Position numbers and translations under genes: made by a program
NCBI RefSeq assembly: GCF_029338555.1
Contig: NZ_CP119989.1
Coordinates: 1,488,001-1,552,000 of the forward strand
From: Halobaculum marinum
GTDB lineage: Archaea; Halobacteriota; Halobacteria; Halobacteriales; Haloferacaceae
DNA length: 64,000 nt
Direction: 5' to 3'
In this document: in pieces, positions 47,728 through 50,227 of the stretch
Layout: each line of letters starts with the position of its first letter
How positions within the stretch are numbered: the stretch's first letter is position 1
The notes under the pieces: model-generated
The model's database searches: none
Seen by the model: only the letters and a program-made list of their open reading frames with translations
Told to the model about the DNA's origin: nothing

Positions 47728-49206
47728 ATGAGTACCGGGGTCACCGTCTCCTCGATGTCGACCTACGCCATTCTCGGCTGTGGGAGCGTCGGCCACGCGG
47801 TCGCCGACGAACTGGCCGACGAGGAGAAGGACGTGCTGATCCTCGACCGTGACGAGTCGCGCGTCGAGGCGCTGCGCGACCAGGACCTGAACGCGAAGGT
47901 GCAGGACATCGCCGAACCGGACGTGGTCGATGCGGTCGCCGACCGAGACGTGATCCTGATCCTCTCGTCGGACGTGGACGCGAACAAGGCCGCCGTCCGC
48001 GCGATCCGCGAGCACGGCAGCGACCAGTACGTGGTCGTCCGCGCCTCCGACCCCGTCAGTGAGGACGAACTGGCGGATCTGGGCGCCGACGTGGTGATCA
48101 ACCCCTCGACGGTGATCGCCGACTCCGCGCTGCGCTCGCTGGAGTCTGGTGAGTTGGAGTACAAGGCCCGCCAACTCGCGGACATCCTCCGGGCGACCAA
48201 CGGGAAACTCGCGATCCTCGCACACGACAACCCCGACCCCGACTCCATCGCCGCCGCGGTCGCGCTCAAGGCCATCGCCGCAGAGTACGACGTCGACGCC
48301 GACATCCTCTACGACGGGGAGATCGGCCACCAGGAGAACCGGGCGTTCGTCAACACGCTCGGGATCGACCTCCACGCGCGCGACGACGCCCAACCGCTCG
48401 ATGAGTACGGCGCGCTCGCGCTCGTCGACTACGCCGAGACCGGCGGCAACGAGATCGACGCCGAGGTCGACGTGTACATCGACCACGACGAACCGGACAC
48501 GGTGATCGACGCGGCGTTCACCGACATCCGCAAGAACGTCTCGGCGACGTCGACGATCCTCACGAAGTACCTCCAGGAGTTCGACCTCTCGCCCGACGAG
48601 ACGGTCGCGACGGCGCTGCTGTACGGAATCCGCGCGGAGACGGTCGACTTCAAACGCGACACCACCCCCGCGGACCTGACGGCGGCGGCGTACCTCCACC
48701 CGTTCGCCAACCACGACACGCTCGAGGACGTGGAGTCGCCGAGCATGAGCCCCGAGACGCTGGACGTGCTCGCGGAGGCGATCCAGAACCGCGAGGTGCA
48801 CGGCAGTCACCTCATCTCCAACGCGGGGTTCGTCCGCGACCGCGAGGCGCTCGCGCAAGCGGCCCAACAGCTCCTGAACCTGGAGGGGATCACCACCTCC
48901 GCCGTCTTCGGCATCGCCGAGGACACGATCACCCTCGCGGCTCGGTCGAAGGACATCCGCATCAACATCGGGAACGTGCTCCGTGAGGGGTTCTCCGACG
49001 TGGGCGAGGCCGCGGGCCACTCCAAGCAGGGGACCGCCGAGATTCCGCTGGGGCTGTTCACCGGCATCGAGACGACCGAGTCGAACCGCGACACGCTGCT
49101 CCAGCTGTCTGAGGAGGCGGTCCGGAAGAAGCTGTTCGACGCGATGGGCGTCGAGAGCTCCGCGACTCCCGGTTCCGGGTCGGGCGAGTCAAGCAACGGC
49201 TCGTAA
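47728..49206 (+). CDS. TrkA-N/DHH-DHHA1 phosphoesterase fusion
   Basis: 492 residues. N-terminal Rossmann RCK/TrkA-N domain (YAILGCGSVGHAVADELADEEKDVLILDRDES, about 12-45). A DHH phosphoesterase domain follows: LAILAHDNPDPDSIAAAVAL (about 160-180) and VDVYIDHDEPDTVIDAAF (about 247-264). A C-terminal DHHA1 substrate domain has INIGNVLREGFSDVGEAAGHSKQGTAEIPLGLF (about 410-445). Substrates of such fusions are nanoRNA or c-di-AMP/pApA in other lineages. The gene is 13 kb from dacZ, so it is a candidate c-di-AMP phosphodiesterase; this is inference. CTTAAG at 47696-47701 suits a leaderless start at 47728; ATG 47755 is an alternative. Confidence 0.9.
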   Translation: MSTGVTVSSMSTYAILGCGSVGHAVADELADEEKDVLILDRDESRVEALRDQDLNAKVQDIAEPDVVDAVADRDVILILSSDVDANKAAVRAIREHGSDQYVVVRASDPVSEDELADLGADVVINPSTVIADSALRSLESGELEYKARQLADILRATNGKLAILAHDNPDPDSIAAAVALKAIAAEYDVDADILYDGEIGHQENRAFVNTLGIDLHARDDAQPLDEYGALALVDYAETGGNEIDAEVDVYIDHDEPDTVIDAAFTDIRKNVSATSTILTKYLQEFDLSPDETVATALLYGIRAETVDFKRDTTPADLTAAAYLHPFANHDTLEDVESPSMSPETLDVLAEAIQNREVHGSHLISNAGFVRDREALAQAAQQLLNLEGITTSAVFGIAEDTITLAARSKDIRINIGNVLREGFSDVGEAAGHSKQGTAEIPLGLFTGIETTESNRDTLLQLSEEAVRKKLFDAMGVESSATPGSGSGESSNGS

Positions 49207-49334
49207 CGGGCGACGAACTTCCTGCGGTGTCCGGTTCTGGGAGCGTCCCTCGTCTGTCACTACCCGTCAGCGACCGCGCCGACAGTTCTCCGATCCGATA
49301 GCTTCGGAGCAACGCTTATGTGGTATACGGTAGC

Positions 49335-49493
49335 ATGCATCATACAGAGGAGGTGGTCGTCATCACAGGACACACACGGACGGGCGACCGGGACCGACCG
49401 ACCGATCCGCGCCGCGCGGACGGTCGTACCTACGGCCACGACGAGGACTGCGCGGGAGGCGGGTATCGAGCGGAAACCGGGACAGCCCAGTAA
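49335..49493 (+). CDS. Possible 52-residue ORF, uncertain
   Basis: MHHTEEVVVITGHTRTGDRD... to TGTAQ. Acidic-basic mixed composition. CTTATG at about 49315-49320 sits only about 18 bp upstream, short for a leaderless promoter. It runs into the first decayed repeat units, so the end may be an accident of the repeat. Weak support. Confidence 0.22.
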   Translation: MHHTEEVVVITGHTRTGDRDRPTDPRRADGRTYGHDEDCAGGGYRAETGTAQ

Positions 49494-49510
49494 CCGAGTA
49501 CCGAGCACAG

Positions 49511-49650
49511 AACGGAACAGCGCGGTAGACAGGCATCGAACGCAGAACGGAACAGCGCGGTAGACAGGCATCGAACGCAGAACGGAACAGCGCGGTAGAC
49601 AAGGATCGAGCGCAGAACGGAACAGCGCGGTAGACAGGCATCGAACGCAG
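49511..49650. repeat. Tandem minisatellite, four 35-bp units
   Basis: Units 49511-49545, 49546-49580, 49581-49615 and 49616-49650; units 1, 2 and 4 are identical, unit 3 differs at three positions (AAGGATCGAG for AGGCATCGAA). The unit begins AACGGAACAGCGCGGTAGAC. Degenerate relatives continue on both sides (about 49475-49510, and about 49740-49795 with GGAACAGCGCGGA). No spacers, so this is not a CRISPR array. Located between the DHH gene and the cdpB-like gene. Confidence 0.93.
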
Positions 49651-49933
49651 AACGGGAACGGAGGGAACGACGGGCCGGTCGAACGCGAGACCCGAGAGGT
49701 GATCGGGGGAGGTCTCCACTCGAACGGCGGCGGCGAATCGAGCGGTGAACGGAACAGCGCGGATAACGGGACAGCGCGGACGAACGGAACAGGGCGGGAG
49801 TCACCATCGTTCCGACGGGTGTATCGCCGGCCCGGCCGCGTGCCGGGCCGCGACCGACGTTCAGAACTGGTGAGCAGTCGCTGTGCGAGTTCGACGACTA
49901 GTGGCGTGTCCGCCGAATCGGCGGCGCCCCGAC

Positions 49934-50227
49934 TCAGACCTGCTGTTCCTCGGCCGTCTCGTCTTTGAGACGTTCGATCGTGTCGTTGATCAAGATGACG
50001 TCGCCGACCGCGCGGACCCACCGGTACGGGATCATCACTCCCTTGCCCGGCTCGATCCGGCTGGCGAACAGCTCCTCGCTCAACTGCGACAGCGCGAGCC
50101 CGGTGACGGCCTGCGCGTCCAGGTCGAGGCGGACGTCCTCGACCTCCCCCACGAAGACGCCGTTGTTGGAGTAGACCTCCCGACCGACGAGGGTCGTGAT
50201 CTCCTGCGGCGTCGCGTCTGCGTGCAT
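49934..50227 (-). CDS. PRC-barrel protein, CdpB1-like cell-division factor
   Basis: 97 residues, a single PRC-barrel: TTLVGREVYSNNGVFVGEVEDVRLDLDAQAVTGLALSQLSEELFASRIEPGKGVMIPYRWVRAVGDVILINDTIERL. Solo PRC-barrel proteins of this type in Haloferax (CdpB1/CdpB2) bind SepF and act at the division ring. From memory the genomic neighbourhood (DHH-TrkA protein on one side, lactate-oxidation genes on the other) matches CdpB1. I leave the symbol empty because the CdpB1/CdpB2 choice rests on synteny recall. Upstream of it is the lactate locus on the same strand. Confidence 0.85.
   Translation of the reverse strand: MHADATPQEITTLVGREVYSNNGVFVGEVEDVRLDLDAQAVTGLALSQLSEELFASRIEPGKGVMIPYRWVRAVGDVILINDTIERLKDETAEEQQV

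Follow-up and report, generated by a model that had tools for sequence, protein, structure and literature searches.

The 35-bp tandem repeats analyzed here probably lie within an unannotated, genus-restricted noncoding RNA gene with a repeat-bearing tail, a reading that we hold with moderate confidence. The window, meaning the whole stretch of 64,000 nucleotides that was analyzed, is a piece of a 3.5-Mb haloarchaeal genome (G000:C1:1488001-1552000). As read from the sequence, the candidate gene would be ~0.5 kb long and run on the plus strand from ~49345, between a gene for a TrkA_N-DHH protein upstream (ending at 49206, plus strand) and a convergent cdpB-like gene for a PRC-barrel protein (ending at 49934, minus strand); both gene ends had been placed correctly in the original prediction. 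The element would go back to an ancestor inside the genus Halobaculum. Its conserved portion would comprise a promoter, the initial ~40 nt and, with weaker support, a 5' hairpin; the remainder would be a weakly folded tail, rich in A and poor in U, whose ~17/35-nt units expand and become homogenized by slippage or unequal recombination.

The Repeat Array

TRF reports a period of 35 with 4.2 copies and 94% matches at 49508-49655, where a 35-bp array had been predicted, and its score of 275 is the highest among the 113 TRF rows in the window. The lag-35 autocorrelation in G000, the genome under study, is 12.4 standard deviations above dinucleotide shuffles. Three of the four full units are identical in the TRF register, as had been noticed earlier, and the third deviates at three positions. 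Decayed copies had been described on both sides, and these correspond to unit 1 and to a stretch with 17-bp period (Table 1). The unit core is confined to this locus: four exact copies exist in G000, every one within the array, with one further copy at two mismatches (outside the array) and nine at three mismatches (one in the array tail). With the core so local, a dispersed repeat family is ruled out, as is a CRISPR array, the units being contiguous at 35-bp spacing and without unique spacers. A plasmid origin and a viral origin were also rejected, the spacer having no match in plasmids and two exact patterns having none in viral contigs.

Table 1. Positions in the window of the array and of the predicted features around it
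Feature	Position	Strand	Remarks
TATA-like box CTTATG, predicted promoter	49315..49320	+	alignment A2; BRE-like stretch immediately upstream
Conserved 5' block of predicted RNA, AGAGGAGGUGGUCGUCAUC..., SD-like	49346..49385	+	AGGTGGT.G.CATC invariant across 7 species
Predicted 12-pair hairpin, one bulged base	49399..49426	+	two compensatory changes G000/G004
Unit 1, decayed, 35 bp	49464..49498	+	66-69% to other G000 units, 74% to G004 units 1/3
Units 2-5, 35 bp each	49499..49638	+	starts 49499, 49534, 49569, 49604; then partial unit to 49655
Degenerate 17-bp-period array of half-units (GAACGGAACAGCGCGG type)	49742..49797	+	TRF score 75; families D2/D3
Perfect 9-bp GC-rich inverted repeat	49828..49850		no T-run after

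The rarity of such arrays was gauged in 80 named haloarchaeal cdpB loci (484 kb; TRF score at least 150, period at least 15), which include three Halobaculum species and one MAG (G009 below). Nine TRF rows pass, representing six distinct arrays. Five of the six fall within stop-free frames of at least 705 nt (frames, not gene calls), so strong arrays outside long frames are uncommon in this sample, in keeping with the rarity originally suggested. The Haladaptatus pallidirubidus locus (L114:5186-5455) has a perfect 123-bp tandem repeat of 2.2 copies (score 540), and no long frame covers that region.

A Conserved Promoter-Like Block

Across the genus (11 genomes) the DHH and cdpB genes are always convergent, with 13 to 1,135 bp between them, and each genome has a second, more distant cdpB copy. 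A conserved block occurs in this gap in seven genomes (G000, G001, G004, G006, G007, G008, and G010; G001 is Halobaculum gomorrense, G004 H. litoreum, and G008 H. saliterrae) and is absent from four (G002, G003, G005, and G009). It consists of a BRE/TATA-like box followed by an invariant AGGTGGT-G-CATC (alignment A2, seven species). The distance from the box to an AGAG-type start, at ~49345 in the window, is 24-25 nt in 7/7. Compared with the haloarchaeal consensus given in PMC4983044 (TTWT and CGAAA), TTAT is found in 4/7 boxes; the BRE/TATA boxes are good in G006 and G008 and weak in G000, G004, and G010. By eye, the sequence that separates the TATA-like box from the predicted start (49315-49345, and its counterparts in the six remaining species) comes close to an interrupted palindrome (GTGNTAC...GTACCAC type) and is possibly an operator.

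From the predicted start onward the plus strand is A-rich and T-poor in all seven species. Measured in 50-nt bins, AT skew ranges from -0.12 to +0.26 immediately upstream of the start, whereas the bin that follows the start has +0.30 to +0.56 in 7/7, results that are not independent, since the loci are homologous. Over the whole body of the element the skew is +0.33 to +0.55; 4.2% of 200-nt windows in the 80 haloarchaeal loci attain an absolute skew of 0.33. From promoter to unit 1, G000 and G004 are identical at 157/196 positions without gaps. This is higher than the rate at four-fold sites of the DHH gene (182/259; Fisher p = 0.022) and in the upstream spacer (59/88, with 15 gap columns; p = 0.024). 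Hence the first description of the array, as a mere minisatellite in a spacer, is not supported: it stands downstream of a conserved promoter-like block, which has a fixed orientation and is present in 7/11 genomes.

The roles once suggested for the array, in termination or in protein binding, lack positive support. The spacer in G000 has no run of four or more T on either strand and no terminator-like site; intergenic terminators of Haloferax volcanii are described as T-stretches (PMC7237163). With no such T-run in the gap, transcription may continue into cdpB in antisense. The inverted repeat at the far end of the spacer (Table 1) may possibly form a 3' end structure of the candidate RNA and/or the cdpB mRNA, and G001, G006, G007, and G008 likewise have a GC-rich hairpin close to the unit's end.

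Distribution and History

Halobaculum litoreum (G004) has a diverged 35-bp array of 2.6 copies at the orthologous place (lag-35 z 8.2). The suspicion of an assembly artefact, which had been named as a possible refutation, did not hold, because this array is independent of the one in G000. Units 2-5 of G000 are 86-97% alike and the three units of G004 66-80%, compared with 57-74% between the species, which agrees with the suggestion that the array is recent or homogenized. Unit 1 of G000 resembles the G004 units slightly more (71-74%) than it does its neighbors in G000 (66-69%). The simplest history would be an ancestral array of ~3 units, expanded and homogenized in G000. Variation in unit number, originally expected among strains, is seen between species (about five units in G000 vs. 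three in G004). G007 shows weaker periodicity, near 18 or 36, and G009 has an array of 18-bp units; homology is not claimed for either. K-mers common to the tails of different species did not clearly exceed shuffles, and a shared tail motif (ACAGCGC-like) found in 4/7 species was inside the shuffle range and was dropped.

A tree of the genus genomes, built from three proteins, places G005 (13 bp between DHH and cdpB) as sister of the block-bearing G006 with support 100, which makes one loss or more well supported; support at other within-genus nodes is 43 to 97. Its absence in 4/11 species also indicates that the element is dispensable. In G001 the element and cdpB are separated by an ORF on the strand of cdpB (L010:832-1488; 218 aa, beginning MHATGIDPIDRRLGGGVPVGSLTALVAPVGS), whose product may be RecA/KaiC-like. 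Similar ORFs are present in the gaps of G003, G007, and G008, and G006 seemingly retains the first bases only.

A sequence model of the seven blocks recovered all seven, with E values no higher than 2.5e-15, and had no other match below 0.005 in the 11 genus genomes. We also scanned 392 genomes of the order with model R1; these include part of the genus, and G004, G006, and G008 were covered by the 11-genome search. Strong matches (E 2.5e-15 or better) are confined to the genus. Outside it are 16 weak matches (best E 1.2e-5, others 8e-5 to 9e-4), which were set aside by eye, as the best precedes an apparent start codon and several others read as coding. The motif GAGGTGGT was sought in the DHH-cdpB gap of 54 of the 80 loci, the 26 loci without a DHH match being left out of the count, and is found only in the three Halobaculum species; in the remaining judged loci DHH and cdpB mostly overlap or sit within a few hundred bases. 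Family-wide short patterns were too unspecific to interpret. Rfam has no match at the element, and only two tRNAs in the window, at the gathering cut-off. Open-licence PMC papers yielded none on the element.

Coding Potential, Structure, and Possible 16S Pairing

A GTG frame just after the predicted start is open for 26-46 codons in 7/7. Its third-position GC is 65-86%, vs. 90-93% in three neighboring genes. Variable sites by codon position number 7/12/7 between G000 and G004 and 8/6/10 (neutral) among G001, G006, G007, and G008. The low third-position GC and the 7/12/7 pattern suggest that the block is noncoding, with a leaderless microprotein still conceivable.

Support for RNA structure is mixed, so that structure appears to be local at best. 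The predicted hairpin (Table 1) has helices at columns 58-85 and 65-79 of the G000/G004 alignment; a helix of at least 6 with two compensations arose in 3/300 column shuffles, and any helix of at least 5 in 7/300. RNAalifold favors another pairing at 49399-49426, and alternative pairings exist. Among G001, G006, G007, and G008, 0/52 RNAalifold pairs are doubly compensated and the covariation term is unfavorable. Folding of the whole predicted RNA does not surpass that of shuffles (z +1.76), and for the array it is worse (z +2.34). A consensus structure for the whole RNA, unsupported by folding and alignments, was rejected.

The 16S 3' end of G000, located through an Rfam search, reads GGCTGGATCACCTCC. 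The predicted 5' end of the RNA, GGAGGUGGUC, could pair with it over 10 positions (one G-U); outside G000 and G004, the remaining five species carry GAGAGGTGGT, shortening the pairing by one position. A second SD-like motif (GAGAGGTGATCG) is present at 49692-49704, within the tail of the predicted RNA. Bases just downstream of the 16S 3' end (L217; CACAGAACGGGAC) match the repeat unit (CACAGAACGGAAC) at 12/13 positions, a likeness that is probably due to chance and that the G004 units do not have. Many H. volcanii sRNAs are reported to show ribosome occupancy without coding potential (PMC12482152), and by analogy with these we would guess that the predicted RNA is a ribosome-associated sRNA.

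Competing Explanations

We infer that the candidate RNA is made and that its SD-like 5' end or its tail may bind the ribosome, an mRNA, or a protein. The repeats would then be a tolerated, perhaps multivalent, tail and not an essential part, the array itself being probably a product of slippage tolerated in an unstructured tail. An ordinary neutral minisatellite, generated by slippage in a low-constraint spacer and preceded by a block that is a decaying remnant and yields no functional RNA, is unlikely. The gap is not needed, given that DHH and cdpB often abut in other genera among the 80 loci; the element is missing from four of the 11 genomes; the tail diverges fast; and homogenization of units requires no function. 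Against this reading are the promoter-like block, which is free of gaps and exceeds both four-fold sites and spacer in conservation, as well as the constant spacing and the switch in skew at the predicted start.

Two further readings place the function elsewhere. It is quite unlikely that the element is a cis regulator of cdpB, acting either through a plus-strand RNA that extends toward cdpB, and perhaps enters it as antisense, or as a pyrimidine-rich minus-strand array that spreads the 3' ends of cdpB mRNA. The convergent orientation in 11/11, the lack of a strong terminator between element and cdpB, and the T-richness of the tail's minus strand (a consequence of the A-rich plus strand) are all compatible with it. 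However, a further minus-strand ORF parts the element from cdpB in G001 (and, by eye, in G007 and G008), and the skew, which goes with the plus-strand start, ends short of the cdpB stop in G000. A leaderless small protein of 26-46 codons, translated from the GTG at 49353 and leaving the array to its 3' UTR, is very unlikely. The GTG lies ~4-8 nt past the predicted start, in-frame ORFs occur in every block-bearing species, the 8/6/10 count leans slightly to third positions, and 72% of H. volcanii coding transcripts are given as leaderless (PMC4983044); the 7/12/7 sites, the low third-position GC, and ORF ends that differ among species all speak against such a protein. The noncoding RNA that we prefer can be given a more specific role, in which its SD-like 5' end and its concertedly homogenized, rapidly evolving repeat tail occupy small ribosomal subunits or a repeat-binding protein and so tune cdpB, a scheme that we consider a long shot.

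Relation to Known Systems

PRC-barrel proteins CdpB1 and CdpB2 of H. volcanii are described as divisome components (PMC12186497). If the RNA is made, the locus, which adjoins an archaeal divisome gene, offers a compact case of a noncoding RNA whose promoter and 5' end are constant but whose repeat units are gained and lost from one sister species to another. Otherwise the array is an ordinary minisatellite.

Among bacterial RNAs, those of the CsrB/RsmZ type are repeat-bearing sponges that display their repeats on hairpins. The candidate resembles them in having a motif repeated along a putative noncoding RNA, but the Halobaculum array folds less than shuffles. A plausible model of action comes from rancRNA_s194 of H. 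volcanii (PMC6104027), given the complementarity of the predicted 5' end to the 16S 3' end, and likewise from the ribosome-occupying sRNAs of that species (PMC12482152); compared with rancRNA_s194 as described there, the link to the ribosome here consists of complementarity alone. The expressed sRNA132 of Haloferax, for which a phenotype is reported (PMC6560208), differs in that the Halobaculum element is known from its sequence alone, and the passages on sRNA132 that bear on this comparison mention no repeat array. Like sRNA132, an example of the intergenic sRNAs of haloarchaea that are limited to a genus, the element is intergenic, confined to one genus, and syntenic between conserved genes.
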